Shown: positions 3,263 to 23,087 of the stretch, piece after piece | Layout of the letters: each line of letters begins with the position of its first letter | How positions within the stretch are numbered: position 1 is the first letter of the stretch | Assembly (NCBI GenBank): GCA_016125225.1 | Contig: WGME01000005.1 | Location: forward strand, 62,001 to 126,000 | DNA from: a bacterium | GTDB lineage: Bacteria; Planctomycetota; Planctomycetia; Planctomycetales; Planctomycetaceae | Reading direction: 5' to 3' | DNA length: 64,000 bases | Made by a program: the position numbers and the translations under genes | The notes under the pieces: generated by a model | What the model was told of the DNA's origin: nothing | Seen by the model: only the letters and a program-made list of their open reading frames with translations | Databases searched by the model: none

Positions 3263-3324
3263 GGCATCTACAAATCGGCTGGAAACCTCTTTCGCGCCTT
3301 GCCAAGGTGGGATAGACTGATCGC

Positions 3325-3591: not shown

Positions 3592-3947
3592 AGGTGCAGC
3601 GGGGCGACGTCGTGCTCGTGCAACTGCCCTTCGCCTCGGGGCAGGGAGCCAAAATCCGGCCGGTGCTGGTGATTCAGTCGGACCACAACAATGCCCGGCT
3701 GCGAAACACCCTGATTGCCGCCATCACCAGCAACACCTCCCGGGCCGCCTTCGAGGCGACGCAGTATCTGATCGATGTGCAGACGCCAGAAGGGGCCGCT
3801 TCGGGACTTCGCTTCGATTCTGCGGTCATCTGCGAGTACCTGGCGACGATCGAGCAGGACCGGATCCTGAAATGCCTCGGCAGTCTGCCGCCGCCCGCCA
3901 TGCAACAGATCGATGAGTGCCTGAAGGCCGCCCTCGGAATTTCATGA
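3588..3947 (+). CDS. PemK/MazF-family mRNA interferase toxin
   Basis: A 119-residue protein with the MazF/PemK signature: RGDVVLVQLPF at residues 5-15, then the conserved KIRPVLVIQ strand and the NTLIAAITSN strand. The family cleaves single-stranded RNA at short motifs and is held inactive by the preceding antitoxin. Its length is normal for the family and no key segment appears missing. It overlaps the antitoxin by four bases, so the two are translationally coupled. In this setting it probably stabilises the mobile island. Confidence 0.88.
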   Translation: MKVQRGDVVLVQLPFASGQGAKIRPVLVIQSDHNNARLRNTLIAAITSNTSRAAFEATQYLIDVQTPEGAASGLRFDSAVICEYLATIEQDRILKCLGSLPPPAMQQIDECLKAALGIS

Positions 3948-3963
3948 ACTCCGCCTTCATTTG

Positions 3964-4482: not shown

Positions 4483-4515
4483 TCAACGTCGCCGTCAGCG
4501 AACGACACGCCGTAG

Positions 4516-4752
4516 TCAGGCCGAAGGGAATTCGCGCTCCAGTTCGCGCCAGATGCGACTCAACGGGACACCGAGGGCCTCAGCCAGCTGTTGGGCAATT
4601 CCGATGCTGACCTGAACTTTCCCGCGCTCGATCGAGCTAACGTAGGTGCGGTGAATGCCGGCGACATCCGCAAAGGCTTCCTGGGACAGACCTTGCCCCT
4701 CGCGATGCCGCCGGATCGCCAAACCGAATCGTGCTTCCAGAGATTCTCCCAT
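4516..4752 (-). CDS. XRE-family helix-turn-helix regulator
   Basis: A compact 78-residue protein that is almost entirely a Cro/CI-type HTH domain: FGLAIRRHREGQGLSQEAFA, then the recognition helix IHRTYVSSIERGKVQ, and a last helix LAEALGVPLSRIW. It is transcribed away from the small gene at 4861, and the intergenic region between them holds a nested palindrome (4791-4829) that is a natural operator for it. It probably represses itself and the divergent small gene. Confidence 0.9.
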   Translation of the reverse strand: MGESLEARFGLAIRRHREGQGLSQEAFADVAGIHRTYVSSIERGKVQVSIGIAQQLAEALGVPLSRIWRELEREFPSA

Positions 4753-5714: not shown

Positions 5715-5938
5715 CATTGCGATGGCGTTTTATCCGCTCGCCGCTGGCAGGGTGGCCTCCGGTCGGCCATGGGATCGTCAGCCGACGCGGCTCCTTCCGC
5801 TTGAATCGCCGGATCCGTCTGGCCGACCGGCGCATTGCGGTTCCCTGATAGAGATCGAGAGGTTCATCCGCACCCGCTGTTAAAATTGCGCGGGGCCTCG
5901 CGGATCTCTAAGATGCAGGCATCTTTCCTGTGTGCGCC

Positions 5939-8900
5939 ATGTTGCGGTTCGTTGCTCTCGTGATTCCCAGTCTGGCCGTGCTGGTCTTGTCGGCCCTGCC
6001 GCGCGAAGCGCAGGCCGCGACGCTGCTTCAGGACAGCTTCACGGGGACGACGATCGATCCGACTCAATGGACTGAGATCGACCCGGCAGGTCTCGGCGGC
6101 ACAGTGGGCAGTGTGCAGCAGAACGGCATTTTGACCGTGGCCAACAGCTGGGTGGCCTCGGTCTGGGGATCCACCGCGCTGGTTTCGACGAGCACCTTCG
6201 CCTCGGGCTCCCTGCAGATTTCCGCCAAGATGACCCGCGGATCGGATCAGCTGCTGGGCTATGGGGACACGAACTTCCAGTCGCCGGGAACCAGCGCGTT
6301 CATTATCGATCTGTCGGGACTGGTCTATGCGCTGCATTGGCACAATGGCGTCTTAGTGGCTTCCAACACGAACTGCGGCTCCTACACCGCCGGCGCGACC
6401 TATACGCTGGCCACGACCGGGACAGGCTTCGATGTCTACAAGAATGCCGGCGGCGGAAACGTCCTGCTGTGCAGTCTCACGACCTCCGGACACGTGTCCG
6501 GCAAGCCCGTGTTTCTGCAGTCCTATGGAACGGCCAGCACCTTTGATGACGTGCTCGTGACGGGCCCGGAACCTGATCCGACGCCTCCGGGGCCTCCCAC
6601 CGGCGTGACGGCGGCGGCCGGAGACACCCAGGCAACGGTCAGCTTTTCTCCGCCGGCGAACAACGGCTGGTCCGCGATTACGACGTATACAGTCACATCG
6701 TCACCCGGTGGTTTCACGGCGACCGGCTCGACTTCACCGATCACCGTGACCGGGCTGACGAACGGAGTGGTTTACACGCTCACGGTGACGGCCACGAATG
6801 CCGCGGGCACATCCTCCGGGTCCAGTGCCTCAAACGCGGTCACCCCCGCCGTTCCCACGGCTCCCCAGCCGCCGACTGGTGTGACGGCCACGGCCGGTAA
6901 TGCGCAGGCGACTGTTAGATTTTCCGCTCCGACGAACAGTGGCGGGGCGGCCATCACGTTCTACACGGTCACCTCCTCGCCAGGCGGTATCACGGCCACC
7001 GGGGCGACTTCGCCCCTCACGGTGACCGGGCTGACGAATGGCGTGCCCTACACCTTCACCGTCACCGCCAGCAATGCCGTCGGCGCGTCCACGGGGTCCG
7101 CTGCCTCCAGCGCCGTCACGCCGATGGTTCCGCAAGTGCTCTTCCAGGACGCCTTCACCGGCACGACGATCGATTCCAGCCAATGGAACGTCATCGATCC
7201 GGCGGGCACGAACATTGTCCAGAACGGGACGCTCTCCGTGAGCCACAGCTACAGCGGCGGCGCTTGGGGCCAAACTGCCCTGGCATCCAAAGCCACCTTT
7301 CGCCGATCAGGCTTGGCCATTTCGGCCCGGCTGACGCGAAGCAGCGCCCTGCTGCTCGGCTATGGCGATTACAATTTTCAGTCCGTCGGCACGCAGGCTT
7401 ACGTCCTGGACCTGTATGGCAGCAGTCTCGTGCTTCTGCACTTCCATAATGGTTCGACGGTGGCTTCAAAATACTGTGAATCTTACACGGCCGGGGCCAC
7501 GTATACGCTGGCCACGACCGGAACAGGATTCGACGTCTACAAAAACACGGGAAGCGGCCCGGTCCTGCAATGCGGCCTCACGACTCCGGCCACGATGACG
7601 GATAAACCCCTCTTTCTGCAGGAGGAGATAGGACCGGGATTCGTCGACGACATCCTGGTGGTCGGCAGTCTGGGCGTTCCGAATGCTCCCTCCGGCGTGA
7701 CCGCGACCGCCGGGAACGCCCAGGCGACCGTGAGTTTTTCGGCTCCGACGAATGATGGCGGGTCGGCCATTACGTTCTACACGGTCACCTCCTCGCCCGG
7801 CGGATTCACCGCCACCGGGGCGACGTCGCCGATCACGGTCACCGGTCTGACGAATGGCGTGCCCTACACCTTCACCGTCACCGCCAGCAATGCCGTCGGC
7901 ACGTCCACGGGGTCCGCTGCCTCCAGCGCCGTGACGCCGAACGTGCCAGTCACTCCCGACCAGGTCACCGGGCTCGTGGCCACGGGCACCAATCAGCAGG
8001 TGCTGCTGGGCTGGGAGGCTCCGGAGGACCACGGCTTTACCGTCACCGATTATCTGCTTGAGTACAGAACAGGCGGCGCAGGCTCATGGACCACAGTCGC
8101 CGACGGTGTTTCCACCGCCGTGAAGGCAATCGTGAGGGGCCTGGTGAACTCCGAAAACTATGACTTCCGCGTCTCGGCCGTGAATAGCGTGGGCACCGGG
8201 ACTGCGTCGACCGTGGTGATGGCCTCCCCGCGCGCGATCACCCAACTCGCGTTCGTGATCAACGGCGAGAGCAACTCCGGCGGCATCGGCCAGAATTCCG
8301 ACGCCACCGCGGACGAGTTAGCCCCACGATCGGCCGTCCAGATCATGAACCTCACCTCCGGGCTATTCGACTTCGAAGACTTGGACATCGGCGCCAACAA
8401 CCTCCGCGATCATGCGGGGCTGGAAGGCTATTACGCCAATTCGCACGGCTTCGAGCTGTATCTGGCCAATGCGGTCGAAGGGCATGCGCTGCCTGGCTTT
8501 GAGCAGGTTTATCTGGTCAAGACCGGCCAGGGCGGGTCCACCATCAGTCAATGGAACGTCGGCGGGACCTATTGGACCAAGTTTCTGCAGCGGACGGCCG
8601 CGGCCAAAGCCCAGCTGGATGACCCGACCTGGGTGGTCTGGTTCAGCCTGGGCATCAACGATCAGATCGCGGGCACACCGACGTCGACGTTCAAGGCCAA
8701 TCTGATCGCCCATCTCCAGCGAATCCAAGCGGACCTTCCGGGAGCCGTTATCATCATGACGGGCTTTGAGGCGATGGGTTACACGGCCTACACCGCCGCT
8801 CTGCGGGAAGTGGCCGCCGTTGAGCCCAACGTCTTCATCATCGACACCACCGCCGCCGCACTTCGAGACGGGAATCACTGGAGCTACGCGGGTCTGAAAA

Positions 8901-9838
8901 CCGTGGGCACGCGTTTAGTGGAGACGTCACGGGAGGTTTTGGGACTGATCTATCCCGAGGCTCCTGGCAATCCGCAGGCCAGCGCCGGCGACAATCACAT
9001 GATCCTCTCCTGGCAACCGCCCCAGGCCGACGGGGGCGCGCCCGTGACGGACTACGCCGTCGAATACAAACGCCATTCCGAGTCCTCGTATGCGACATGG
9101 GTCGACGGAGTGAGCACCGGCACCTCCGCGACTGTCAACGGGCTGGTCGCTGGCACGCTGTATGACTTCCGGATCACGGCCATCAACGCCCAGGGATCCG
9201 GCGCATCGGTCTTGCTCAGCGCCACGACGACGGGCACGGGCGTGTCTTTGCTGCCAACGACGGTCAGCCTCGCATCGTCACGGAATCCCTCTTCGGAGGG
9301 GGAGGCCCTCACTCTCACCGCGATTCTGACACCCTCGGCGGCCACCGGGACGGTGCTGTTCCAGGATGGCCTGCTCGCTCTCGGTTCAGCCCTGATCGGT
9401 CAGGGCTCCGGAAGCCTGACCCTGTCGTTGCTGTCGGTGGGCACGCATGCTCTGACAGCGGTCTACGCCGGCAATTCGACCTATTCCGGCAGCGTCAGCA
9501 ACACGGTGACCCAGGTGGTTCAGGCCGCCAGCAATTCGAGTGCCAGCAGCAGTTCCCCGCGCAGCCCGGCCACTGGCGTGGCTCGTGGCGGCGGACGGGC
9601 GAGAAGCGGCCTTTCTATGGTGCATCCTGCCCGGACCGGCCACGCCTCCGTGGCTGTCGGCAGCCACGCGCCGTCGGCCACCGAGCTGACCTTCGAATTA
9701 CCGATGCTCCTTCAGAAAATGCGGGACCGGCTCGCGGCCCGCATCGAGCGCCGCATTCTCGCACAACCGTCTGTCGCCGCCTTACTGCGTCGGATTCTTG
9801 AGCGTCTGAACGCTCGGATCGCCGCCCGCCGTCCCTGA
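5939..9838 (+). CDS. Secreted multidomain fibronectin-III / SGNH-esterase-like protein
   Basis: About 1299 residues with a signal peptide (MLRFVALVIPSLAVLVLSAL, cut after AQA). In order: a beta-sandwich domain (28-211), FN3 (215-305), FN3 (308-396), a second copy of the beta-sandwich domain (398-578), FN3 (580-669), FN3 (671-764), an SGNH/sialate O-acetylesterase-like domain (766-1003), FN3 (1005-1099), an Ig-like domain (1103-1193) and a basic tail. In the esterase domain GESNSGG gives the nucleophile Ser778, GIND a later block, and DGNH the Asp977-His980 pair. It probably acts outside the cell on acetylated glycans. A tight hairpin at 5910-5925 lies just upstream. Such cargo is unusual in a mobile island. 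Confidence 0.8.
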   Translation: MLRFVALVIPSLAVLVLSALPREAQAATLLQDSFTGTTIDPTQWTEIDPAGLGGTVGSVQQNGILTVANSWVASVWGSTALVSTSTFASGSLQISAKMTRGSDQLLGYGDTNFQSPGTSAFIIDLSGLVYALHWHNGVLVASNTNCGSYTAGATYTLATTGTGFDVYKNAGGGNVLLCSLTTSGHVSGKPVFLQSYGTASTFDDVLVTGPEPDPTPPGPPTGVTAAAGDTQATVSFSPPANNGWSAITTYTVTSSPGGFTATGSTSPITVTGLTNGVVYTLTVTATNAAGTSSGSSASNAVTPAVPTAPQPPTGVTATAGNAQATVRFSAPTNSGGAAITFYTVTSSPGGITATGATSPLTVTGLTNGVPYTFTVTASNAVGASTGSAASSAVTPMVPQVLFQDAFTGTTIDSSQWNVIDPAGTNIVQNGTLSVSHSYSGGAWGQTALASKATFRRSGLAISARLTRSSALLLGYGDYNFQSVGTQAYVLDLYGSSLVLLHFHNGSTVASKYCESYTAGATYTLATTGTGFDVYKNTGSGPVLQCGLTTPATMTDKPLFLQEEIGPGFVDDILVVGSLGVPNAPSGVTATAGNAQATVSFSAPTNDGGSAITFYTVTSSPGGFTATGATSPITVTGLTNGVPYTFTVTASNAVGTSTGSAASSAVTPNVPVTPDQVTGLVATGTNQQVLLGWEAPEDHGFTVTDYLLEYRTGGAGSWTTVADGVSTAVKAIVRGLVNSENYDFRVSAVNSVGTGTASTVVMASPRAITQLAFVINGESNSGGIGQNSDATADELAPRSAVQIMNLTSGLFDFEDLDIGANNLRDHAGLEGYYANSHGFELYLANAVEGHALPGFEQVYLVKTGQGGSTISQWNVGGTYWTKFLQRTAAAKAQLDDPTWVVWFSLGINDQIAGTPTSTFKANLIAHLQRIQADLPGAVIIMTGFEAMGYTAYTAALREVAAVEPNVFIIDTTAAALRDGNHWSYAGLKTVGTRLVETSREVLGLIYPEAPGNPQASAGDNHMILSWQPPQADGGAPVTDYAVEYKRHSESSYATWVDGVSTGTSATVNGLVAGTLYDFRITAINAQGSGASVLLSATTTGTGVSLLPTTVSLASSRNPSSEGEALTLTAILTPSAATGTVLFQDGLLALGSALIGQGSGSLTLSLLSVGTHALTAVYAGNSTYSGSVSNTVTQVVQAASNSSASSSSPRSPATGVARGGGRARSGLSMVHPARTGHASVAVGSHAPSATELTFELPMLLQKMRDRLAARIERRILAQPSVAALLRRILERLNARIAARRP

Positions 9839-9839
9839 G

Positions 9840-10382
9840 ATGCTCCGCCGCGCTGCTGTCCCACCGGCGAGGCCCGACATACCGGCGGACCGCTTGCAGA
9901 CGACCGTGGACGAACTGTCGCAAAACGTTCGGATACTGACGGACATCGTCGCCCAGATTCGGGAAGACCTGAGTTGGCTCACCCGCAATGGAGTGCCGCA
10001 TCAGCCGCTGCATGTGCTGGTGCATTCGATCCCCAAAGTGTCCGAGGCAAAGCCCGAATCCGTTCAGCTCTCGGTCTTCGCTCCGCCGAACCCGGACCCG
10101 ACCGTCGCCTTGACCGACGACCAGCAGCGGTCAAGCGTCATTGACCAGCTCGTCGAGCAGTTGTCCGTCCCACTGGGCGAACTGGCTCAGGAACAACTGA
10201 ATGCCTTGCTGGGGATCATGGATCACGCCCACCGCGAAATCCTGACGGCGATCCATAGCCCTTCCACGGCCAGCAGCAAACCGAAATCCAAACAGGGGAA
10301 AGAATCACGCCAGCGATCGAAGTTGAAGCCTGCACCTGTCGAAGCGACCGATCCACCGCCATCGGCCGGTCAGCTGTTCTAA
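9840..10382 (+). CDS. Hypothetical protein with helical coiled-coil-like N-terminus
   Basis: A 180-residue protein starting one base after the stop of the secreted protein. Residues 15-55 look helical (DRLQTTVDELSQNVRILTDI), the middle is acidic, then a helix of QLVEQLSVPLGELAQ type, and the tail is lysine-rich and disordered (KPKSKQGKESRQRSK). Eight bases separate it from the methylase-like gene that follows. No family is recognised; it may be a partner of that protein. Confidence 0.55.
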   Translation: MLRRAAVPPARPDIPADRLQTTVDELSQNVRILTDIVAQIREDLSWLTRNGVPHQPLHVLVHSIPKVSEAKPESVQLSVFAPPNPDPTVALTDDQQRSSVIDQLVEQLSVPLGELAQEQLNALLGIMDHAHREILTAIHSPSTASSKPKSKQGKESRQRSKLKPAPVEATDPPPSAGQLF

Positions 10383-10389
10383 TTCCCGT

Positions 10390-11250
10390 ATGGCCAAGGA
10401 GTTCTTCCAGTATCCCGAAACGGCTCCACTCTTTGATCTCCTGGAAGAGGTCACCCGTCGTAGCGGCGTCAGCCGGGCCATCGCCTTTGAGGATTTTCTG
10501 ACCATGAGCGTGTGTGCCCTGTCGGGCGGCCGGATGGAAGATCTCTATCTGCAGAACGTAGCCAAGCATACGGCTGGCAAACCGGGCAAGCGAGGCTGCG
10601 ATACGCTGGCCCGGATGTTCGCTCAATTAGTTGTCGTGATGGAGCAGGACACGCGGGAACAAATGAAAGACATCCTCGGCGACCTCTTTCAGGGCAGCAT
10701 TTCCTATGGAGAGCACGGGCTCTATCTGACGCCAATGCCGATCTGTGAATTGATGACACAGCTGACGGTGGGTGTCTCGTCCTCAGCGGATCAGCCAGAA
10801 ATCTCGGCAGATGATGCCCCGCCGGGACACTCTGAACCAATTTCGGACGCAGCCGCCCCCGACCCGATTTCAGACCTGTCACCGCGCCGTGTTCACGACC
10901 CATGTTGTGGCTCAGGTCGGATGCTGCTTGCCGCCGCACAGAATCATCGCCACTGGGAATTCGTCGGCCAGGATGTCGACCTGCGCTGTGTCCGGATCAC
11001 GACGTTGAATCTCGCCTTCCGTAATCTCTACGGCTATGTCATCCACGGCAACACGCTGGCAGTCGAGCAGAAACTCATCTATCGCACCGGCTTCGACGGC
11101 AGGGGATTCGTGCGTGAGATCCCGCTGACTGCGTGTCCGCCGGCCGTGCAAGCCGAAGTGCGACAGACGGCAGCGCCGCCGATGGACTCCGATGAGATTG
11201 AATCGGTGCCTGACAATAAGCGGCCGCAAGGCCAATTGCGGTTGTTCTGA
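10390..11250 (+). CDS. N-6 DNA methylase-like protein lacking an NPPY motif
   Basis: A 286-residue protein of the HsdM-like fold. The N-terminal helical region (FFQYPETAPLFDLLEEV) is followed by HGLYLTPMPICELM and the SAM-binding motif DPCCGSGRMLLAA (about residue 170), then an acidic residue in FVGQDVDLRC. The expected catalytic [DN]PPY/F motif is not seen: where it should follow, the chain reads VIHGNTLAVEQK. It therefore may bind SAM without methylating DNA, or may need a partner. It is known as a family to travel on plasmids and integrative elements. The C-terminus ends GQLRLF. Confidence 0.7.
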   Translation: MAKEFFQYPETAPLFDLLEEVTRRSGVSRAIAFEDFLTMSVCALSGGRMEDLYLQNVAKHTAGKPGKRGCDTLARMFAQLVVVMEQDTREQMKDILGDLFQGSISYGEHGLYLTPMPICELMTQLTVGVSSSADQPEISADDAPPGHSEPISDAAAPDPISDLSPRRVHDPCCGSGRMLLAAAQNHRHWEFVGQDVDLRCVRITTLNLAFRNLYGYVIHGNTLAVEQKLIYRTGFDGRGFVREIPLTACPPAVQAEVRQTAAPPMDSDEIESVPDNKRPQGQLRLF

Positions 11251-11290
11251 CCATGATCCCGTCAACCAACAGAACCTCTTCAGCCGGATT

Positions 11291-11364
11291 CGCAATCGAA
11301 TCTCGATTGCGCCACGCAGGATCGTCGCTCACCATCGGACGTGGTCTGTCCCAATGGACAGACC
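11291..11364 (+). promoter_or_regulatory. Two perfect hairpins before the DUF932 gene
   Basis: The 163-base gap before the DUF932 gene contains CGCAATCG/CGATTGCG (11291-11298, 11304-11311) and GGTCTGTCC/GGACAGACC with a CAAT loop (11343-11364). Neither is followed by a T-run. They could be an operator, a leader structure or part of an origin. Confidence 0.4.
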
Positions 11365-11413
11365 GTTCGAGTGACCGTTCCTTCAATCCGCCATCTGACC
11401 AGGAGACCGAATC

Positions 11414-12439
11414 GTGACCACGTTGACCCGCGCCCATCGTGAACTCTTCCGCCGCACGGCTGACGAGTGTTACAGCTCGCTCGACACCCTGCAGCAGGCC
11501 GTTCAGGAACGCCATCGCCAATCACAGGATCGCTGGCAGCCGCCGCAGCTGCTGACGCCGATCACCTACGGCAATCGTCTCGATCTGACCATTGGCGGCG
11601 ACGGCGACTATGCCATGAACGACTGGAGTTTCTCGCAGTTGTGCCGACTGGCGGGTGTCAATCGCGACACCATCAACCGGCTGAGTCCGGAAACCGCTAG
11701 CCAGGCCTTTCGCGAGACGTTGCCCTCGGCCGAGAAACCGCTGCAACTGCTGACGACCGAGAATACGGTCCGCTCCATTCACGGGGTGGCTTACACTCGG
11801 TTGTGGGACAGCGAACTGGTGGCCACGGTCCGCGAGTACGCCACCGACTTCCAGCCGCCGCAGAACGCGTTCAATGATGCCACCGGTCTGTATGCGGGAG
11901 AGCAGGACATGTTCTTATTCCTGATTGATCCCGTCGGCTGGATCGAAATCGGCGGCGAAGCCTTCGCACCGGGGTTCTTCGCCTGGAACAGCGAAGTCGG
12001 CCGCAGGTCGCTGGGTCTATCGACGTTCTGGTTCCAGAAGATCTGCCAGAACCACATCGTCTGGGACGCGATCGATGTTGTCGAGTTCACCCGCAAGCAC
12101 ACGGCGAGTGTGCGGGACTCGCTCAACACGGTTCGATCCTCAATCGAATCGCTGGTGAAAAAGAGGGACGAACGCCGCGATAGCTTTGCCCGTGTGCTGC
12201 GAAACGCCGTCACGACGAAACTAGGCGACACCGCCGAAGACGTCGAGAAGGTGCTCGCCAAACAGGGGATCGGCCGTCAACTGGCCCGCGAAGCTCTCAA
12301 ATTGGCCCAGGAGAGGGGCGCGTTCACGATCTGGACGCTGGTCGATGCGCTGACCCGGCTATCAGGCCAACTGGTCTATGCCGGCGATCGGCTGGAAGCC
12401 GATCAGAAAGCCGCCAGTCTGCTGGCGTTGGCAGCGTGA
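11414..12439 (+). CDS. DUF932-family plasmid/phage-type protein
   Basis: A 341-residue protein with the DUF932 pattern: AMNDWSFSQLCRLAGVNRDTIN, then LLTTENTVRSIHGVAYTRLWD, GEQDMFLFLID and GEAFAPGFFAWNSEVGRRSL, a beta-rich core, with helices at the end. The family is a hallmark of plasmids, phages and integrative elements and of unknown biochemical role. A GTG start is used because AGGAG lies eight bases upstream. It ends in a 9-bp inverted repeat. Confidence 0.85.
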   Translation: MTTLTRAHRELFRRTADECYSSLDTLQQAVQERHRQSQDRWQPPQLLTPITYGNRLDLTIGGDGDYAMNDWSFSQLCRLAGVNRDTINRLSPETASQAFRETLPSAEKPLQLLTTENTVRSIHGVAYTRLWDSELVATVREYATDFQPPQNAFNDATGLYAGEQDMFLFLIDPVGWIEIGGEAFAPGFFAWNSEVGRRSLGLSTFWFQKICQNHIVWDAIDVVEFTRKHTASVRDSLNTVRSSIESLVKKRDERRDSFARVLRNAVTTKLGDTAEDVEKVLAKQGIGRQLAREALKLAQERGAFTIWTLVDALTRLSGQLVYAGDRLEADQKAASLLALAA

Positions 12440-12457
12440 AGGGATCGTTGCTCGATT

Positions 12458-12488
12458 CCAGCCCTGTGTCATGACGATGCAGGGCTGG
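12458..12488. terminator. 9-bp bidirectional hairpin between convergent genes
   Basis: Perfect arms CCAGCCCTG (12458-12466) and CAGGGCTGG (12480-12488), between the plus-strand DUF932 gene and the convergent minus-strand STAND-like gene. It is only 20 bases before the latter's stop. The tail TTCT is short, so termination may be partial. Confidence 0.6.
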
Positions 12489-12509
12489 TTCTCGATACGC
12501 TGTCGGCTT

Positions 12510-15500
12510 TCATGACAGAGTTCTATACCTGACCGCGAACGCCGCCCCTTCGACCTTAATGTCGGTGGCGTCATTGCCAAATTCCCTCTGATAGTCGAGG
12601 AGATCAAGAACGTCCGTGCGATCTCCACATTCAACCACTATCTTCGCTACAGCGTTAAGGCGATCTGGTGTCGGATTTGCCATGAACCACTTTCGAACAG
12701 CCACGCGAAGCCGTTCTCGCGATTCGCCTCTTGCAGTTGCGTAATGACACCACCTCCAAATCACTCCATTATCGCTCTCTGCACCATCTAGAGTTTCGAC
12801 CAAGTCATCATCCGTTGGAAAATGTATTCGTTGCAAGCGCACAATATATGATTCGTTACCTTGGGATCGCTGCGCCTCCACTCTAATTTTGATCTCATTC
12901 AATACCACCTTATCAAGAACCTTGCTACCATTGTGTGCAGCAAGCCATTCCGCAATATCCATCAGTCCCGCGTCAGGTAGGTGGGACACGTAAGGTATGA
13001 GCGAGTCTATTTGCTCGAACGTGATCTGCTCTTTGAGCCCCTGTGAACTAAATCCAAACGCGTGACCTAAATGTTCAAAGGGCTTCCACTCTGAAGGTGC
13101 CTCCACAAATGCTTTCTCACAGGCTGATCCAAGCAACCTATCGCCAAAATATAACGCTGTCTGAAATAACTGCCGACTGCATTTTAGCGATGTCCAATGC
13201 TTATGGAGCAGAGTTACCGCTACTTCGCGTGGTATACAGCGCAGCACTGACGAGAAAATATAGTGCTCATCTAAATTGCCACCTGAGAAATCCGCTGGAG
13301 TCATGAGGCTCAGCTCAGCTAATGCTGCATCCAAGGCACCGAACATTCGATCGTCCCAGACGTTCGGCACAATTGTCCACCAATACTTGTCCTTGAGCAG
13401 AGCGTCAAGAAGAGACTCGATGCATGACCGATCGCCAAGTCTTGCCCTTCTCCATAGCACGGTCTTCGACTCAAGCAGCTCAGCCGGGAGCTGCAGCAAC
13501 TCATCTACGGAAACCGTTGTTGCAACCCAAGAGCATAACAGGCTGTTCTGTTCAGACTCGTTCGTGGCCTCTTTCCAGCGTGAAAGGATAGCTGCTCGTG
13601 ACTCGTTTGAGAGTTGCTTACCTTTATGTTGAAGAGGATCCCATTGCGATCGCTGTTGATGGACCCAGAAGTTAAACGTGTTGGCTCCCTTCTCCTTTCG
13701 TTCCATCTGTGCAATCTCACTGGCTACAAATGCAACAGCAGCAGGGTGGTCGATTTCGCCTAACAACTGCGTGAGGCACCAGGACAAGCGACCGTCAGAT
13801 ATCGCCTTAGAAACGAAGTAAATTACCACACCATGACTCACGCCGTGCCGCATACTCCATTTTAACTCAGTTAGGAACCGCGTGCGTTGCGATGCCCCAT
13901 GCTCGTCGGCGTCATCAGACAGTGACGCCCACGACTCGAGTAGCGGCTCCAGCGTCTCTTCCGGTTCTACAGAGCATCGAATTGATGCCCATAGAGCCTC
14001 TACGAGACAGTCAGCGACCTTGTGGTGTTCCCAAGCTCGCAGCACTGGCACCGCCAATGAAGGTTCCCCGAGATATCCGGCAAGTACAAACGCGGCATGA
14101 AGTTCGCGTTCTGAAAGTTGGCCGCGATTCAGGTCGGCAGCCAACTTTGCGCAAAGCGACGAGCAGTGTGAACGCTTCGCTTCTGCAATTGTGTCTTCAA
14201 CATAAGGCGCGTGTATGCTTGGGTAGAAATCTCGGTTCGCCACGAAATATTTTCCCCATTCAGCATCACCGTTGACCAATCGAGCTCCACTGAAGCGATG
14301 ATCTTCCTTGTTGAACTCAGTAACTTCCAGCACTAAATGGCTCCTAACCGCTCTTAGTATCTCTGCAGCGGCATAAATGACTTGAGATGGCACATTTTCG
14401 TCAGCTACAGCACTCGACAACCAATGCTTTCCGCACTGCACTAGCTGCTTTGCGAATACAGAGTTGCTATCAGCCACGTGTCGAAGGCTCCGAAGCACGG
14501 CTAATGGAGCACATTCTGTCAGCCTAGGGACGATTGACACATCTGTTTTAGACACAAGAACGCGTGCTACGGACGCAGTGAAGTACGGATCGGCGAGGAT
14601 GTCGTAATGGCGCTCAATGTCGCGCAAACATTCTGCGAGTGACTTTGCAATCACCGTCTCCAGCAAGCGATCATGCCGGAAGGTAAATCTACTGTCTTCG
14701 TCTCGATTCACAACACGGCACAGACCGCCCCTGACGCAAAGCTGCCTAATCGCAGCAAGCTGTGTCTGATCGAGCCATTGCGCGAGTGTAGTCCATTGGG
14801 GATACAAGTCTCGCTCAGTGATCATTCTGGAGGCAATGGTGGTGAGAGCTGACTGAAAATCTCCAGGCAGGTGAGCTCCCTCGGCAGCGCAGTCGTTGAT
14901 CGTCTGTACGATATATGCTTCGATCAATGTGTGAGGTTCAGCATCCAAGTTGTCGGATGGCGAATGGCCATACAGCGTGCCCCACAAGCCGATCAGAATT
15001 GGGTCGAACTCCAGCCGCCGGGTTAGATCAAATGATGCTTGCCGCCCGATGGGGTGCTGAGAGTATGCTTGCAAGCAAGTATGAGCCTCGTCAGCAGTCA
15101 ACGGCTGCGTCGAGAACTCTGAGATAAAGCTGTCGCTGCGGTATTGGGCTGCAATCGAACTCCACAGATGGTTCCATATTGGAAGTACCAAATGCGGAGC
15201 CTTCGCTTCTTGATGTGTATGTCGTGATAGAGACTCGTCCGCCATCGCCTTTCGCATCCAGGAGATGAGTTTGCGGACACACTGTAAGGGAGCAGTCGTA
15301 CGATTTACGTCGTCGACAGCAATGACGAGAGGCACATTGTGCTGAGCTGCGAGTGCTTGCGCAAGCCGACCAGCATCGGAACTCAGGGAAGGAGCCATTG
15401 ATTGCAAGAGTTTAGTTAGCGCCTCATCTAGACTGAGGGACGTAGCTGCCGTTTCTGCGGGGAGCCAGAGTCCAATGCCATTCTTGCTCAACACTTCCGA

Positions 15501-16277
15501 GAGCATGTGGTAGCAGGCCACACTCTTTCCACTTCCTGAAGCACCATTCAGAATGATGAGCGATGCCCAACTGCTCAGTGAGTGAGTACGAAGCCGAGTG
15601 GTCGTGGCAGAGCCAATGATCGTGTTTGTGGAGCAGAACAGTTCGAACGAATAAGATGATAGATTGGCAGTTGCCAAAGCGCGCAATAGGGAAAGGGATA
15701 GCAAGTCGGCTGAAATACCCAGATGCTCCAGTCGAAGCCACTGCCCTTGAGGCGTTGTGTCCAGATGATCTCGAAAATGGGATCGCGCCAGAAAACGAAC
15801 CTCAACACCGTACTGCGCACCAGCCTCGTATGCCTCTTGCATGATCTCGGCTCTGGGTTGTTTGTTGGTGCAAAATGTAAAGACAAAGGTTGCGTCAGGT
15901 TCGTGCCCTCGGAGCGCCGATGCGAGTCGTGCGGCTTTGATTAGGTCGCCATCGTCCGATGGCTTATAGGACTTACCGGACGAACGAGTGTGATCGAAGA
16001 GCAGCTTTTTGAGAATCTTGTCGGCATGATCAGTTGAGAAGCCTGCCATCACGTAACGGGATGGAGTAATACCGGGTACTCTTGAGAATCCATCCAATGG
16101 GTTCTTAACAGTCTTCCCGTTTGCATTGACGCCCAAGTGCTCAATCCGAGCATAATCGGGGTCGATTTGGCGGAGAACACGCGTGGCAAGAATCTCAAAG
16201 CTGCCGGCATCCGTCATTGATTCTATCGCATCCGCCGTGGTCATGCCGAAGTCCGTAAACGGGAACGTGCATTGCAT
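12510..16277 (-). CDS. Large STAND-like NTPase with nuclease-like N-terminus, candidate defence gene
   Basis: A 1255-residue protein. Residues about 25-190 resemble the Mrr/restriction-endonuclease-like domain found before NTPase domains: IEHLGVNANGKTVKNPLDGF, then FVFTFCTNKQP and RSHFRDHLD. The usual active-site lysine position (YVMAGFST) is not lysine, so nuclease activity is doubtful. A Walker A GASGSGKS (245-252) and a Walker B-like PLVIAVDDVNR (316-326) follow. The remaining 900 residues are helical and repeat-like, as expected for a sensor. Anti-phage STAND proteins of the Avs type share this plan. The gene is visibly more AT-rich than its neighbours (some 60-base stretches are near 43% G+C). 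A later ATG (M12 or M21) could be the start. Phage-defence role is inferred. Confidence 0.7.
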   Translation of the reverse strand: MQCTFPFTDFGMTTADAIESMTDAGSFEILATRVLRQIDPDYARIEHLGVNANGKTVKNPLDGFSRVPGITPSRYVMAGFSTDHADKILKKLLFDHTRSSGKSYKPSDDGDLIKAARLASALRGHEPDATFVFTFCTNKQPRAEIMQEAYEAGAQYGVEVRFLARSHFRDHLDTTPQGQWLRLEHLGISADLLSLSLLRALATANLSSYSFELFCSTNTIIGSATTTRLRTHSLSSWASLIILNGASGSGKSVACYHMLSEVLSKNGIGLWLPAETAATSLSLDEALTKLLQSMAPSLSSDAGRLAQALAAQHNVPLVIAVDDVNRTTAPLQCVRKLISWMRKAMADESLSRHTHQEAKAPHLVLPIWNHLWSSIAAQYRSDSFISEFSTQPLTADEAHTCLQAYSQHPIGRQASFDLTRRLEFDPILIGLWGTLYGHSPSDNLDAEPHTLIEAYIVQTINDCAAEGAHLPGDFQSALTTIASRMITERDLYPQWTTLAQWLDQTQLAAIRQLCVRGGLCRVVNRDEDSRFTFRHDRLLETVIAKSLAECLRDIERHYDILADPYFTASVARVLVSKTDVSIVPRLTECAPLAVLRSLRHVADSNSVFAKQLVQCGKHWLSSAVADENVPSQVIYAAAEILRAVRSHLVLEVTEFNKEDHRFSGARLVNGDAEWGKYFVANRDFYPSIHAPYVEDTIAEAKRSHCSSLCAKLAADLNRGQLSERELHAAFVLAGYLGEPSLAVPVLRAWEHHKVADCLVEALWASIRCSVEPEETLEPLLESWASLSDDADEHGASQRTRFLTELKWSMRHGVSHGVVIYFVSKAISDGRLSWCLTQLLGEIDHPAAVAFVASEIAQMERKEKGANTFNFWVHQQRSQWDPLQHKGKQLSNESRAAILSRWKEATNESEQNSLLCSWVATTVSVDELLQLPAELLESKTVLWRRARLGDRSCIESLLDALLKDKYWWTIVPNVWDDRMFGALDAALAELSLMTPADFSGGNLDEHYIFSSVLRCIPREVAVTLLHKHWTSLKCSRQLFQTALYFGDRLLGSACEKAFVEAPSEWKPFEHLGHAFGFSSQGLKEQITFEQIDSLIPYVSHLPDAGLMDIAEWLAAHNGSKVLDKVVLNEIKIRVEAQRSQGNESYIVRLQRIHFPTDDDLVETLDGAESDNGVIWRWCHYATARGESRERLRVAVRKWFMANPTPDRLNAVAKIVVECGDRTDVLDLLDYQREFGNDATDIKVEGAAFAVRYRTLS

Positions 16278-16288
16278 ACTGCTTCAGA

Positions 16289-16518
16289 TTACTGATCTAT
16301 CTGAATTGAAATCACGGATGTGCCCATAGAAAATGCCTTCCTGGGCCGGCTATGAACCGGATTGTCTGGCGCGGATGCCGTGAGAAACAAGGGAACGTCC
16401 CAGGTACACCCGGCATACGCCATACCGGCGAGGTCGGACCCAGCCACCACGGGGCGAACAGCAAGATCGCAAAGAGGTCGTCCAGTATCGAATCATCCCG
16501 GCGGCGATTGTGTGTCAT
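16289..16518 (-). pseudogene. Frameshifted remnant of a small membrane protein
   Basis: On the minus strand an ATG opens MTHNRRRDDSILDDLFAILL, then FAPWWLG. Shifting frame right after that gives DLAGMAYAGCTWDVPLFLTA and then a stop at 16289. The joined sequence reads like the N-terminus of membrane-anchored proteins with a DDLxxLxxxxPWWxG motif, known in front of restriction-endonuclease-like domains. The rest of such a protein is absent. It lies just upstream of the STAND-like gene, on the same strand. This is a reading across a frameshift, so confidence is low. Confidence 0.35.
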
Positions 16519-16762
16519 CCTGATGCGTGCTTACTTTGTAATCGTTTCCGCTCCCTTTGGCCTGTGCAGACGTATCGTGCAAAAACTTCGGTTACGATGC
16601 AACGATTGAGAGTCCCTGCTCCCAGCATCGCCGTTTTGACAATCACGCGACCAGCAATTGCGCCTGCCTTGATGCTCAGGCACTCTGACCCCATCTGCCA
16701 ACAGTCGGCAGCCGCGATGCCCAACGGCATTGCCCGTTTCACACCAGGGGCAGAGTCAGAGC
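16519..16762. other. Non-coding stretch before the zinc-ribbon gene
   Basis: About 240 bases between the frameshifted remnant and the zinc-ribbon gene, with no frame of protein-like composition. Together with the remnant it forms a gene-poor interval of 485 bases. I see no strong repeat or terminator. Confidence 0.5.
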
Positions 16763-16957
16763 ATGTTGGTCGAACTTCAGGACGGCAAATGCCGCAGTTG
16801 CGGGGGACAACTCGAAATTGTCGGTGCCGATGATGCGGCGCTGGGCGTCGAATGCACGGAATGCGGCGACGGCTACACGGTTGAGCCGGATGCCTTCAAC
16901 GACGGCGGCATCAAGTACTGGCCGGAAGCGATGGTCCAGTTCGTGGAGGAACTTTAA
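16763..16957 (+). CDS. Small zinc-ribbon protein
   Basis: A 64-residue protein with two CxxC pairs (CRSCGG and CTECGDG), so a likely zinc ribbon; the rest is acidic (EPDAFNDGG, FVEEL). ATG at 16763 is preferred to the upstream start in the same frame, because residues before it look non-coding. It overlaps the next gene by one base, so the two are co-transcribed. Such ribbons in mobile islands usually bind nucleic acid or protein. Confidence 0.6.
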   Translation: MLVELQDGKCRSCGGQLEIVGADDAALGVECTECGDGYTVEPDAFNDGGIKYWPEAMVQFVEEL

Positions 16958-17184
16958 TGGACCCCGACACTGCGTTGAAGGAGTTGCTGCTGGCCGTCGA
17001 AGTCGGCGATGTGGACCGGGTTGAGGAACTGGCGGAAGGGCTGCTGAACTGGCTTGAACGAGGCGGTTTTCCGCCGCTGACGATTGGTCCACGCGAACTG
17101 GGCGTCGAATGGCATCGTACGATTGCGACGGCTGCCTGCCAGGCCGCAATCTCCGAATGTGCGAGATTCTGCAGAGGCTCATGA
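16957..17184 (+). CDS. Small helical hypothetical protein
   Basis: A 75-residue protein, mostly helical by appearance (TALKELLLAVEVGDVDRVEE, LLNWLERGG, then WHRTIATAACQAAISEC). Start and stop of adjacent genes overlap (TAATG). A hairpin terminator follows 20 bases later. No family is recognised. The pairing with the zinc-ribbon gene suggests that they act together. Confidence 0.55.
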   Translation: MDPDTALKELLLAVEVGDVDRVEELAEGLLNWLERGGFPPLTIGPRELGVEWHRTIATAACQAAISECARFCRGS

Positions 17185-17205
17185 CTCCGGAATCTCCGCT
17201 CTTGT

Positions 17206-17234
17206 CCTGCATCCATCGCGATGCAGGGCTTTTT
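17206..17234 (+). terminator. Rho-independent terminator after the zinc-ribbon operon
   Basis: Arms CCTGCAT (17206-17212) and ATGCAGG (17221-17227) are followed by GCTTTTT. It closes the plus-strand pair and lies directly beside the stop of the minus-strand recombinase. Confidence 0.75.
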
Positions 17235-17239
17235 CACGA

Positions 17240-18217
17240 TCAAATGACAATCCGTTCAATCTCATCCAGCGTGATCTCATCATTCCGCCGGTCGTAGAGC
17301 TTCGTCGTTTTGGCACTCGAATGGGCCGCGATCTGCTGGGCACGTTCGAGTGTGCCGCCGCCAAGCAGGTACGTCGTGATGCCGGTGGCCCGCCAGGTAT
17401 GACAGCCAATCCGGTCGGGGAGTCCTGCATCGCGGGCACGACGTTTGATCATCGCCAGGACTTCGCGGCGGCTGATCCGTCGTTCCGTAAGCCGTTTGTG
17501 TCGGTCGACCGTCCGAAAGAGGGGATCCCATTTAGCGAAAATGACGCCGGCCGCAGCGATATAAGCGTCGAGGTAGGCTTCGGCCGCATGGTGGGCCGGG
17601 ACTTCGTGGAACTTGCCGCCCTTCTCGTGCAAGCGAAACCACCAGCGTTTGCCATCCGGATAATAGTCGTCTCCATTCATTCCAATGACGGCCGAGACTC
17701 GCGCGAACGAATAGACCATCACTGCCACGAGAGCCCTGTCCCTCAAGCCCGCGATGGTCGAGACGTCAATGGCATCGATCAATCGCCGTGCCTGTTCGGC
17801 TGAGAGTACCGGTGTCTTCCCGCGCGTGACCACGTGCTTGGGGCCGCGGACCGAAGAAGCGGGATTGAGCGGAAGCGCCTGCCCGATCACCAGATAATCG
17901 AACAGCATGCGGATGGCGGCCAGATGCTGTTTTACGGTCGGAGCGCTATGCGACGCCGAAATCTCCTCAATGTAAGCGGCTACGAGAGGAGGGGAGAGTT
18001 GCTCCAGCCGCAGTTTGTGGTGTTCGCACCAATCCGCGAACCGAACGACGGCCCGCGCATATGCTTCGCGGGTGTTTCGGTTCCGAATGTTCGCCGTGAA
18101 GAACTCAATGACACGGCGACATGCTTGGTCGCCCGCGTCAAGGAAGAGTCGCGGCAGGTGCCCAGCGATGAGCGCCGGTAGTTGACGGCTGGTGGCGATG
18201 ATGGGCTGATCGGTCAT
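17240..18217 (-). CDS. Tyrosine recombinase (first integrase)
   Basis: A 325-residue tyrosine recombinase. The N-terminal SAM-like core-binding domain (NRNTREAYARAVVRFADWCE, SAPTVKQHLAAIRMLFDYLV) precedes the catalytic domain. Visible active-site residues are Arg in SFARVSAVIGM, Lys in LHEKGGKFHEVP, HTWRATG (HxxR), His in AAHSSAKTT and Tyr in KLYDRR. It is thus intact. A 12-bp palindrome with a 6-base spacer sits 31 bases upstream of its start (18248-18277) and could be its core site or operator. It differs clearly from the integrase at 25856, which supports two separate elements. Confidence 0.88.
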   Translation of the reverse strand: MTDQPIIATSRQLPALIAGHLPRLFLDAGDQACRRVIEFFTANIRNRNTREAYARAVVRFADWCEHHKLRLEQLSPPLVAAYIEEISASHSAPTVKQHLAAIRMLFDYLVIGQALPLNPASSVRGPKHVVTRGKTPVLSAEQARRLIDAIDVSTIAGLRDRALVAVMVYSFARVSAVIGMNGDDYYPDGKRWWFRLHEKGGKFHEVPAHHAAEAYLDAYIAAAGVIFAKWDPLFRTVDRHKRLTERRISRREVLAMIKRRARDAGLPDRIGCHTWRATGITTYLLGGGTLERAQQIAAHSSAKTTKLYDRRNDEITLDEIERIVI

Positions 18218-19463: not shown

Positions 19464-20285
19464 ATGCTGACACTCAAGTTTCTTCAGTTCATCTGGCAAA
19501 TGCTCAAAGAGGACAAATCCTTCCAGGTCGGAATGATTGCCGGAGCTGTGGGAATTGTCGGTGCCATTGGATGGTTCATCTTTTTTCCCGCCCTCGTAAT
19601 CGACCTGTCGATTCTGCTTATCGTTACGGTCAACAGAATTACCAAAGCGATCCTGTCCAAGCTCGCGGAGCAACGGGCTCGTGAGCTGCGGATCCAGCGG
19701 GAAGCCGAAGAGGCGGACCGCTTTCACAAAGCGCAGGAACTAGCCCGAATTGAAGCAAATAGCCTTGAGAATCAGCAGAAGCGGGCAGCTGCCATCGCCG
19801 CACTGGAGCCTGCCTCAAATCAAATCCGCCGCTTCTGGGCGAAACATCACCTCATTCTAAACGAAGTATGTCCTCTCAGATTGCTGAACGAAGAGATTCA
19901 GGCGTCAGTCTCCGAAGCATCTCCGTTTGAGTCTCTGCAGCAACTGGCAGCTCTCAAGGAAACCTTGATCCGCAAGGTTGTCAGGTTCGAAACCGAACAA
20001 CTCTATGAGAAGTGGTACGAATACATTTCTGAGGCAGTCCCCCGCGACGAATTTGACCGTCTGATGCACGAGGCGGAAGAACAATCTCGCACCGCAGATG
20101 AGTACGGTCGACGATTGATCGAACTCGGGGAGTTCCTTTCCGAGGCGGCGGGTCCAGCCGCCGTGAAATTGCACAAGAAACGAGAAACGGATCGCGTAGC
20201 CGACTACGAAGCCATGTTCGCGGATGATGCCGAGAACCCCTTCGACGAGACTGAGGAGGACCGCAGTGCATCACGAGTTGGCTAA
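19464..20285 (+). CDS. Membrane-anchored coiled-coil protein of the second module
   Basis: About 273 residues from ATG 19464. A hydrophobic pair of segments (VGMIAGAVGIVGAIGWFIFF and ALVIDLSILLIVTV) is followed by a long charged helical region beginning KLAEQRARELRIQREAEEAD and continuing to the acidic C-terminus. It overlaps the start of the ATPase gene by 20 bases, so the two are coupled. It may anchor that cytoplasmic motor, which has no membrane segment of its own. The upstream TTG start at 19410 is possible but unsupported. A small hairpin with T-run sits just before, near 19425-19450. Confidence 0.6.
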   Translation: MLTLKFLQFIWQMLKEDKSFQVGMIAGAVGIVGAIGWFIFFPALVIDLSILLIVTVNRITKAILSKLAEQRARELRIQREAEEADRFHKAQELARIEANSLENQQKRAAAIAALEPASNQIRRFWAKHHLILNEVCPLRLLNEEIQASVSEASPFESLQQLAALKETLIRKVVRFETEQLYEKWYEYISEAVPRDEFDRLMHEAEEQSRTADEYGRRLIELGEFLSEAAGPAAVKLHKKRETDRVADYEAMFADDAENPFDETEEDRSASRVG

Positions 20286-21996
20286 ACCTAATCTCTCCCT
20301 GCGCATCGGCTCGACTGGCCCAAAACGCACGATCGAGTTTGGAGACGAAGAACTCGCCACCCACATGACCGTCTATGGGGGGACCGGGAAGGGAAAGTCG
20401 AAGCTGCTGGAATTGATCATTCGTCAGTTGATCGAACAGCGGGCCGGAGTCTGTGTCATCGATCCGCATGGGGACCTCGCCGAGGATCTGCTCGCCTGGA
20501 CGATGGAGCGGTACGACGCGACCGACAAGGCCGTCTATCGCCGCATCAATTACTTTGAACCGGGGTCGAACACCCACCGCTTCAAATTCGATCCCTTTCA
20601 GTACAACGAACTGAGTGGGGAGAGTTACGAAGACTGGTTGAAGGCCAAGGTGGAATCGGTCGCCCGAACGATCATCCGAAAACAAGGCGAAGCCGGCTTC
20701 GAAGGCAAACCCCGTCTGGAGCGATTCCTGACGAACGTGTTGTATGCCTGCGGCGTTCGCGTGAATGCCAACGGTGACCACTTGGGATTGGGTGATGCCT
20801 TGGTGCTGCTCGATCCTAGCCATCCGTCCCACGAACCGATCTATTCCCGCATCGCACCCCATCTTCCATCAGAGATTCGATCCGACTTCGAGAAAGTGAG
20901 GGGAAGCAAACCCCGTCAACAGGAAGACTGGGTCGAATCGACGATCAATCGGCTGCGCTCGTTTCTGTCTCCTGCAGTCAAAAGCCTGTTCGCGGGAGAA
21001 GCCCGTCAGACGCTGAACTTCCGCGACATCATCGAAAAACAGGCAGTCATGCTGGTGAATCTCCGCCGGACCCGGAGTTTCACGATCGATCAGGGCAATG
21101 CCATCGGCGGCATGTTCATCAACGAGATTCTGGAAGCGGCACAGATCGCATCGAGAACCGCCAGAAGGCCGTTCTATCTCTTCATCGATGAAGCGAGCCG
21201 GTTCGTCGGCAAAGACCTCATGGATGCCCTCGCGCAGTTCCGGAAGATGAAGCTGTCGTTGTGCCTGGCCGTTCAGGACCTGTCGTCATTGAAACTCGGC
21301 GAGATCGACATGACGGCCAAAGTCGTCAGCCAGTGCGGCATCCATATCACCTTCCAACAGAAGTATCCTGAAGATTTGGAAGTGCTCGGGAATCTGTTCG
21401 GCTATCCGCTGATTGACTTCACGCCTCACACGCAGGAAGTCGACCGCTTTGACGGGTATGAAGAGATCCAGACCACTGATTACACCTCGTCGAAGACGAC
21501 CGGAGAGAGCGAGTCAGCCAGTGAGAGCCGTGCGCAGCGCTGGCCGAAGAAAGACATTATGGACCCGGATACGTACACCGACTCCAAGGGTTTTTCCAAG
21601 AGCAAGACGGAATCTCGGACCGAAGGCTCCACGCTGAAAACCGGCCATCTCACCAAGTACCGGACCGAGGTGCAGGACAGCGGTCGGCTGAAGCGCTCCG
21701 TTGACGACCAGTTTCATCAGATCAAGCAATTGCTGCGAACGCTCGGAAAAGGGGAAGCTGTCGTGTCCGTCGATGGCACTCCCCCGTTTCCGATGCAGGT
21801 GCACAACGTGTCGACGCCGTTTCCCACACTGGACGACACCCGACGCTTGAATCTGGTCGACGGCTTCAAGAAGTTTCTGGGCAAGAATCACCCGTACTGT
21901 TTTGTTCCGTCCACCCAGGACGACGAAGAGCAGCGGTTGCTCCGCTTTATCGGCGACAAACAGAAAGAGGCGGGAGAATCGATTTTTGGCGTGTAG
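20266..21996 (+). CDS. HerA/VirD4-like ATPase of the second module
   Basis: A 576-residue ATPase. GTG at 20266 is chosen because GAGGAGG lies seven bases upstream; the earlier ATG at 20224 lacks one. Walker A GGTGKGKS is at about 38-45, CVIDPHGDLAEDL at about 63-75, and a FIDEASRFV strand at about 305. A Ser/Thr-rich low-complexity linker (residues about 415-460) precedes the last domain. It is shorter than the ATPase at 1013, without its large N-terminal domain. It is probably the DNA motor of the second element, coupled to the upstream membrane protein. Confidence 0.8.
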   Translation: MHHELAKPNLSLRIGSTGPKRTIEFGDEELATHMTVYGGTGKGKSKLLELIIRQLIEQRAGVCVIDPHGDLAEDLLAWTMERYDATDKAVYRRINYFEPGSNTHRFKFDPFQYNELSGESYEDWLKAKVESVARTIIRKQGEAGFEGKPRLERFLTNVLYACGVRVNANGDHLGLGDALVLLDPSHPSHEPIYSRIAPHLPSEIRSDFEKVRGSKPRQQEDWVESTINRLRSFLSPAVKSLFAGEARQTLNFRDIIEKQAVMLVNLRRTRSFTIDQGNAIGGMFINEILEAAQIASRTARRPFYLFIDEASRFVGKDLMDALAQFRKMKLSLCLAVQDLSSLKLGEIDMTAKVVSQCGIHITFQQKYPEDLEVLGNLFGYPLIDFTPHTQEVDRFDGYEEIQTTDYTSSKTTGESESASESRAQRWPKKDIMDPDTYTDSKGFSKSKTESRTEGSTLKTGHLTKYRTEVQDSGRLKRSVDDQFHQIKQLLRTLGKGEAVVSVDGTPPFPMQVHNVSTPFPTLDDTRRLNLVDGFKKFLGKNHPYCFVPSTQDDEEQRLLRFIGDKQKEAGESIFGV

Positions 21997-22199
21997 GGGC
22001 TTGACGTCGCAGTTTCTTTGGGTCTAATGATGTCACGCTCCTTTGGGAGTGCCTCTAGTGACGGCCGGATTGCGGACGACGCTTACGAGCGTTGCAGCAC
22101 GGTTGCCTGGTTGTAGTGACGTCCCTCGGGACACTGTGATGCCGAAGTACCCTGGTTTTTCAGGGTGCTCCGGCTCCTTTGGTTTCTAGGGGCGACGTG
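21997..22199 (+). other. Structured intergenic segment with hairpins and direct repeats
   Basis: Two hundred bases between the ATPase and the replication-relaxation gene. The decamer GCTCCTTTGG occurs twice (22037-22046, 22173-22182) and TAGTGACG twice. Hairpin ACCCTG-GTTTTT-CAGGGT is at 22149-22166, with shorter pairs near 22037 and 22125. Repeats between a motor and a relaxation gene suit an origin, oriT or leader RNA. Confidence 0.4.
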
Positions 22200-23087
22200 A
22201 TGGTGACTGACCGCGATCTCGCGATTCTTTCGGCGCTGGCCAAATACTACGTGCTGGCCCGACCGCAAATTCAGCGGCTCTGCTTCGAGAGCGACGTCAG
22301 TGGTCGGGTTACGCGCAGGCGGTTGCAATACCTGGTCGACGCTCGGCTCATCAATCGTCAGCAAATGCTGTTCTGCGCTCCCCACGGGGGCATGCCCGCG
22401 ACCGTGTATTTCCCCTCCCCGCTCGGAAACGAGCTACTGGCGAGACATCTCGATGACGAGCGACTCTTGCTGACGCCTTCCATCGCTCCGATCCAGCATC
22501 ACATCCCCCACTGGATCGCCGTCGCGGAATCGCACATCGCGTTCGATAAGGGCGCGGCGGCGGCGGCGGGAGTGACAATTGATCCCTGGATCAATGAGTG
22601 GGATGTCGTGAATAAAGACGAATCGGCTCCCGAAAAGCGTTTTCGACTCTATACCCTCATCAGCGAAACGCCCCGACTAGTGTGCGCCCCGGACGCGGCG
22701 TTTCTGCTGGAACTCAAAGGTTTCCGCAAGGTCTTCTTCATCGAACAGGACCGGGCCACCACCGGGGCCAGACAGGTGGCCGAAGGCAAGTCCCGCGGAT
22801 ACGCAGCGCTGGCCGAACGAAACCTGCATCACCGCATGTTTCCCACTTCGAACGTCGAAGCCTTCACGGTCCTCTGCATCACGCCGGATCAGCGACGACG
22901 GGATGCTCTGAGGCTGGCCATGAACAACCGGCCCGCCGCCAATCTCTGGCGGTTCGCGACGTCGCAGGATCTGGCCGGTGACCCTTTCCGCAGTCCGATC
23001 TTCCACCCCTGCCTGGGCGAGCCGACATCCATCATCAAGCCGTCCGCAGGGTGTACCACAACCGGTCCGAGGGGGGACACCCCCTGA
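22200..23087 (+). CDS. Replication-relaxation family protein of the second module
   Basis: A protein of about 295 residues. ATG 22200 follows AGGGG; the TTG at 22179 is not favoured. The N-terminus is a winged helix (DRDLAILSALAKYYVLARPQ, RVTRRRLQYLVDARLIN). The core has APDAAFLLELKGFRKVFFIE, the acidic strands of the Replic_Relax family, with EQDRATTGARQV following. It is the intact counterpart of the truncated protein at 2-829. The order here is ATPase then relaxation gene, the reverse of the first module. A large inverted repeat lies 45 bases downstream, a natural target. Confidence 0.75.
   Translation: MVTDRDLAILSALAKYYVLARPQIQRLCFESDVSGRVTRRRLQYLVDARLINRQQMLFCAPHGGMPATVYFPSPLGNELLARHLDDERLLLTPSIAPIQHHIPHWIAVAESHIAFDKGAAAAAGVTIDPWINEWDVVNKDESAPEKRFRLYTLISETPRLVCAPDAAFLLELKGFRKVFFIEQDRATTGARQVAEGKSRGYAALAERNLHHRMFPTSNVEAFTVLCITPDQRRRDALRLAMNNRPAANLWRFATSQDLAGDPFRSPIFHPCLGEPTSIIKPSAGCTTTGPRGDTP

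Follow-up and report, generated by a model that had tools for sequence, protein, structure and literature searches.

A STAND NTPase with a nuclease-like head on mobile DNA of a planctomycete, a probable Avs-like immune sensor with relatives in bacteria and haloarchaea

The locus and its surroundings

The window (the whole stretch of DNA analysed here, 64,000 nt of a planctomycete contig) carries on its minus strand an intact open reading frame of 1255 residues, accompanied within 10 kb by three genes typical of mobile DNA:

nt 12510–16277, minus strand: STAND NTPase with a nuclease-like head, whole ORF, 1255 aa
nt 17240–18217, minus strand: tyrosine recombinase
nt 20224–21996, plus strand: VirD4/HerA-like coupling ATPase
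nt 22179–23087, plus strand: Replic_Relax relaxase (PF13814, E 2e-16)

Homologs from many phyla align along the entire ORF, most of them without internal stops, and it is therefore a real gene rather than a chance frame. Translation probably starts at M12 (nt 16244), since the first residues of the homologs that were compared fall at or close to position 12. The gene has a G+C content of 51.8%, and its GC3 of 52% lies well below the 65–78% found in nine sampled genes of the window, in agreement with an earlier note on this DNA, which had described it as AT-richer than its neighbours. Just upstream, on the other strand, is a small ORF (nt 16730–16957) with a weak zinc-ribbon match.

The recombinase, coupling ATPase and relaxase support the presence of a mobile element, and the mobile context proposed in the same note is thus borne out. 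A test for integration of an island into the tRNA-Arg gene at nt 26985 gave no support: the 3' end of this tRNA occurs only once in the genome, leaving the island border undefined, and none of the relatives checked has a syntenic empty site. Right of the tRNA-Arg gene, the DNA looks like ordinary chromosome, as judged from a large ORF matching a diheme protein (nt 32096–36862) and a gene for an RND-type efflux pump (AcrB/MdtB-like, nt 39981–43580). On the other side of the STAND gene, an N6 DNA methylase-like ORF, seemingly short at 286 aa, adjoins a DUF932-like ORF (nt 10390–12439), a combination that plasmids and phages typically carry. Further out, nt 5930–9838 encode a secreted-looking protein of 1302 aa with fibronectin-like repeated segments, and the gene contains internal DNA repeats of 254 and 112 nt (nt 6372–7947).

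The NTPase switch and the C-terminal solenoid

The protein was modelled with AlphaFold2 in two parts, residues 12–575 (pLDDT 85, pTM 0.73, from 14 sequences) and residues 540–1255 (pLDDT 83, pTM 0.70, from 12 sequences). Behind the N-terminal head, which is described in the next section, the following features were recognised:

nt 14625–15695, minus strand: STAND switch (about residues 195–551), consisting of NTPase, HD1 and winged-helix-like region
nt 15522–15545, minus strand: Walker A, GASGSGKS, residues 245–252 (K251)
nt 15303–15326, minus strand: Walker B, VIAVDDVN, residues 318–325, of which N325 is nearly invariant
nt 14667–14681, minus strand: FRHDR motif of the winged-helix-like region, residues 533–537
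nt 12513–14597, minus strand: C-terminal helical solenoid, HEAT/ARM-like, putative sensor (about residues 561–1255)

In an alignment of 11 divergent family members, residues S247, G248, G250, K251 and D323 of the NTPase are invariant, as are F533 and H535 of the FRHDR motif, the remaining three positions of which (R534, D536 and R537) are nearly so.

No model of PADLOC matches the protein, and its matches in NCBIfam and Pfam are weak and lie below the curated cut-offs. Among the homologs (11 members searched) the matches are limited to short, generic ones of the P-loop, nSTAND or mad8 kind. The NACHT profile of Pfam scores 13.3 bits against the protein, relative to a gathering cut-off of 26.7, and is seen weakly in four of the 11 members. 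A second STAND NTPase profile, nSTAND_NTPase5 (PF25199), is likewise weakly present in seven; in the members checked individually it reaches 19.7 and 26.1 bits, below its cut-off of 34. Avs models are contained in both the PADLOC and NCBIfam libraries, and none appears among the matches shown for the 11 members (PADLOC, E up to 1; NCBIfam). Sequence searches of the PDB with the whole protein, an 11-member profile and a 24-member head profile returned no informative relative. Judged by sequence, the protein belongs to none of the Avs and NACHT families catalogued so far.

With the model of residues 12–575, the best Foldseek match in the PDB is Avs4 bound to a phage portal protein (8dgf, E 1.2e-9), followed by NLRP3, NLRP7, NOD2 and Avs5. 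When the model was structurally re-aligned, NACHT structures of NLR proteins ranked at the top, with NLRC4 (4kxf) reaching a Z score of 21.9 over 350 residues and NLRP3 a Z of 18–20 over the NBD-HD1-WHD part. Avs4 re-aligned to model residues 1–564 with a Z of 11.8 and an rmsd of 10.8, the latter indicating that the domains are placed differently in Avs4 and in the model. The C-terminal part of about 700 residues is predicted to be entirely helical (mean pLDDT 83). It resembles karyopherins and PP2A scaffolds at Z scores of at most 9.2, which is the level of a common arrangement.

A P-loop NTPase with Walker A and B motifs is thus followed by HD1 and a winged-helix-like region, and the predicted models display the tripartite layout of STAND proteins, with a putative effector head, a switch and a putative C-terminal repeat sensor. 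Given the fold matches to Avs4 and NLRs, the switch is assigned to the NACHT/Avs type of STAND proteins despite the Pfam scores below cut-off, and STAND membership of the protein is well supported. The STAND architecture claimed in the earlier note, namely Walker A and B motifs with a helical C-terminal region behind them, holds, and the NTPase has an NLR-type fold in the models. The structure prediction and fold search called for in that note therefore recovered the STAND NTPase whose absence it had named as grounds for abandoning the claim.

The N-terminal head

The head is about 180 residues long and has a predicted alpha-beta-beta-beta-alpha-(alpha)-beta-alpha-beta topology, which resembles the core of PD-(D/E)XK (restriction-endonuclease) proteins. 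Its main features are:

nt 15702–16244, minus strand: head, residues 12–192
nt 16194–16196, minus strand: E28, Glu in the first long helix, conserved in all 24 members
nt 16092–16094, minus strand: D62, Asp within P-[LIV]-D-G and a candidate ligand of the metal, invariant among the 24
nt 16005–16007, minus strand: K91, Lys in the helix that follows strand 3, shared by all 24 and a candidate for the relocated catalytic residue
nt 15936–15947, minus strand: D111 (24 of 24) and K114 (23 of 24) where the next helix begins, in the motif GD[LIV]xK

The segment LGVNANGKTVKNPLDGF is present in the protein, and D62 within the head is invariant in the 24 members. No sequence match to known nucleases was found for the head in Pfam or the PDB. 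The multi-domain structural match to Avs4 does extend over the head, as far as residue 1 of the model, yet with the rmsd of 10.8 given above. As for the active site expected of the fold, the first catalytic Asp is in place, in a P-x-D motif at the start of strand 2, P60 and D62 being invariant in all 24 heads. The (D/E/Q)-x-K motif on the next strand is missing: position 81, where the Lys would be expected, is Ser, Thr or Ala in every one of the 24, and position 79 is Glu, Gln or His in most heads and otherwise Gly or Ala. The window protein has Gly at position 79, and Gly or Ala is also found in its closest relative and in two others, so that the window protein is itself only a putative nuclease. 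Better-conserved homologs, such as those of Myxococcus and Xanthobacter, have His there.

The earlier note had called the head degenerate, with the active-site Lys apparently replaced and an effector that could be non-nucleolytic. The replacement itself stands, but the description as degenerate is weakened, because the loss is a trait of the whole family (24 of 24) and the head need not be broken. The head is also the most conserved part of the protein, with a mean pairwise identity of 43% compared with 26–36% elsewhere, as is expected of a working effector. The invariance of E28, D62, K91 and D111, together with K114 in 23 of the 24 members, suggests that a relocated site is under selection. 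Relocation of the catalytic Lys is established for some nucleases of the PD-(D/E)XK fold; our literature search for lysine relocation in this fold found no papers. From the alignment, a relocated active site appears at least as likely as a degenerate, perhaps non-nucleolytic, head.

Neither the family head without its body nor the family body with a third type of head was found in plasmids, planctomycetes and the phylum of genome G404. Two Melainabacteria-like copies (L045, nt 985–4629, plus strand; L046, nt 1036–4683, minus strand) retain the NTPase and solenoid and carry a strongly diverged head with the sequence GTPDYLI...VCLQIS, in which Ser again occupies the expected place of the Lys. 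In a profile comparison the diverged head is colinear with the family head, at a non-significant score, and it has no plasmid match.

Family distribution and horizontal spread

About 24 homologs (23–56% identity) are scattered sporadically among Planctomycetota, Myxococcota, Cyanobacteria, Pseudomonadota, Campylobacterota and haloarchaeal plasmids. Seven plasmid copies were recovered by tblastn, from Pseudanabaena, Sphingomonas, Acinetobacter, two Aliarcobacter and two haloarchaea. A further 15 loci, including two short fragments, came from scanning the genomes of bacteria and archaea for motifs, and genome searches added three planctomycete copies, one further myxobacterial copy and the two Melainabacteria-like copies, a label inferred from the small genomes in which these were found when the cyanobacterial phylum was searched. 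The gene is rare. Counting the query genomes, it is present in four of 392 planctomycete genomes and, in other groups, in 1 of 369, 1 of 289, 3 of 292 and 3 of 146; the other listed genomes of the taxonomic family to which the window belongs have no homolog. No relatives were found among phages and IMG/VR contigs.

In the family tree the copy of the cyanobacterium Tildeniella groups with proteobacterial and myxobacterial copies, away from those of other cyanobacteria, and the haloarchaeal pair sits among bacterial copies. These placements require horizontal transfer. In-frame stops or changes of frame interrupt several members (L024, nt 9986–13668; L036; L043), suggesting that the gene has been lost more than once. 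The member on contig L017, filed as part of a Klebsiella pneumoniae metagenome bin, is closest to a cyanobacterial one, and the Klebsiella label may be wrong.

Neighbouring genes

The loci compared have no recurring partner gene. Only the two Melainabacteria-like loci have neighbours in common, apart from two isolated matches between pairs of loci. This fits the statement in the earlier note that no recognised target protein lies beside the gene. The same note had named consistent placement in housekeeping operons as a finding that would count against a role in defence, and the loci compared share no such operon. Whether the neighbourhoods are enriched in defence genes is difficult to read from counts: 131 neighbours matched 86 PADLOC families and 116 genes from arbitrary regions of the same genomes matched 49, both sets being mixed, and the control regions also match restriction, Gabija-like and other PADLOC families.

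Individual plasmid loci are suggestive. On one Aliarcobacter plasmid (L009, nt 6140–17584) a gene of the Lit phage-exclusion type adjoins the family member and a Shedu nuclease gene is nearby, so that this segment is a possible small defence island. On the Sphingomonas plasmid an AbiEii-type gene lies next to the family member, and some of the plasmid homologs are near ParA or toxin-antitoxin genes.

Comparison with known systems

One of the closest known counterparts is Avs4 (AVAST type 4, 8dgf), likewise a single protein with a nuclease-type N-terminal head, a STAND NTPase and a long C-terminal sensor. It differs in length (a chain of 1541 residues in 8dgf, compared with about 1244 in the window protein), was absent from the profile search of PDB sequences, and unlike it the window head is without the textbook catalytic motif. 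The clade 6 proteins bNACHT25 and bNACHT32 have a NACHT/STAND switch, a C-terminal helical sensor and a PD-(D/E)XK-type head, the fold that the predicted topology of the window head resembles; the window protein departs from them in its unusual head motifs and in using a solenoid of about 700 residues as the putative sensor. In bNACHT25, which combines a nuclease head, an NTPase and a helical C-terminus, an Asp of the head is needed for defence (PMC12169576). Avs1–4 and the bNACHT proteins of clade 6 are triggered by phage infection and kill the infected cell by means of their nuclease heads (PMC12931631, PMC12169576). The NACHT modules of NLRC4 and NLRP3 have the same NBD-HD1-WHD arrangement (Z about 20) but belong to eukaryotic proteins with other effectors and LRR sensors, and only about 10–12% of the sequence is identical.

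Proposed function

By analogy with Avs1–4 and clade 6 bNACHT proteins, and from its fold and distribution, the protein is most likely an abortive-infection sensor. We consider a single-gene, Avs-like immune (suicide) sensor carried on mobile DNA to be the best explanation of the locus and a reasonably probable one. The C-terminal solenoid would recognise a protein of an intruder, either a phage or a rival element, with a phage as the presumed target, and the NTP-bound STAND module would then oligomerise. This would bring several nuclease-like heads together, and DNA would be cut and the infected cell killed or stalled. In these heads a rearranged site formed by E28, D62 and K91, with D111 and K114, would replace the textbook D-(x)n-(D/E)-x-K. 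More tentatively, and with the balance slightly against it, the members may constitute a separate bacterial and archaeal family of stand-alone STAND immune receptors that has not been described before, defined by a dedicated, working nuclease head with this rearranged site (Glu in helix 1, Asp in strand 2, Lys in the next helix) and a HEAT-like sensing solenoid of about 700 residues.

The same sensor could instead carry a pseudo-nuclease, a nucleic-acid-binding or oligomerising adaptor, with killing achieved by another route, which corresponds to the non-nucleolytic effector suggested in the earlier note. The absence of the canonical Lys from all members can be read in this way, as can the failure of the head to match any recognised catalytic family and the state of strand 3 in certain members: the window protein and L002 have A-G/A-F-S-T there, with no acidic residue, and position 79 is Ala in L010 and L020. 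Against a pseudo-nuclease stand the strict invariance of E28, D62, K91 and D111 across phyla and domains of life, the conservation of the head above all other parts of the protein, and the lack of a second effector gene accompanying the family; we regard this reading as rather unlikely.

The mobile setting itself admits a different emphasis, in which the protein is directed at other plasmids or at integrative elements, or serves element maintenance, and phages are not the chief target. The seven plasmid homologs, with ParA or toxin-antitoxin genes near some of them, are in keeping with such a role, as are the genes for an integrase, a coupling protein and a relaxase close to the window gene. 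Defence systems generally ride on mobile elements, however, and genes for replication or transfer are not consistently linked to the family; the probability of this reading is low. STAND proteins also include regulators such as MalT, and a maltose-system structure (8bob) is among the fold matches, but a non-immune regulator, such as a transcription or stress switch with a nuclease-like DNA-binding head, is difficult to reconcile with a gene that is sporadic, horizontally spread and without a shared operon in the loci compared, and we consider it very improbable.

Significance of the family

These data place an unnamed family, spanning two domains of life, among the prokaryotic proteins related to NLR immune receptors. 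The comparison also corrects a likely misreading: the textbook lysine is missing throughout the family, and its absence is not the decay of one gene. Should the head cut nucleic acid, it would be an example of a nuclease effector whose active site has moved. Since the system is compact, consisting of one gene, a phage panel could be used directly to look for its trigger.
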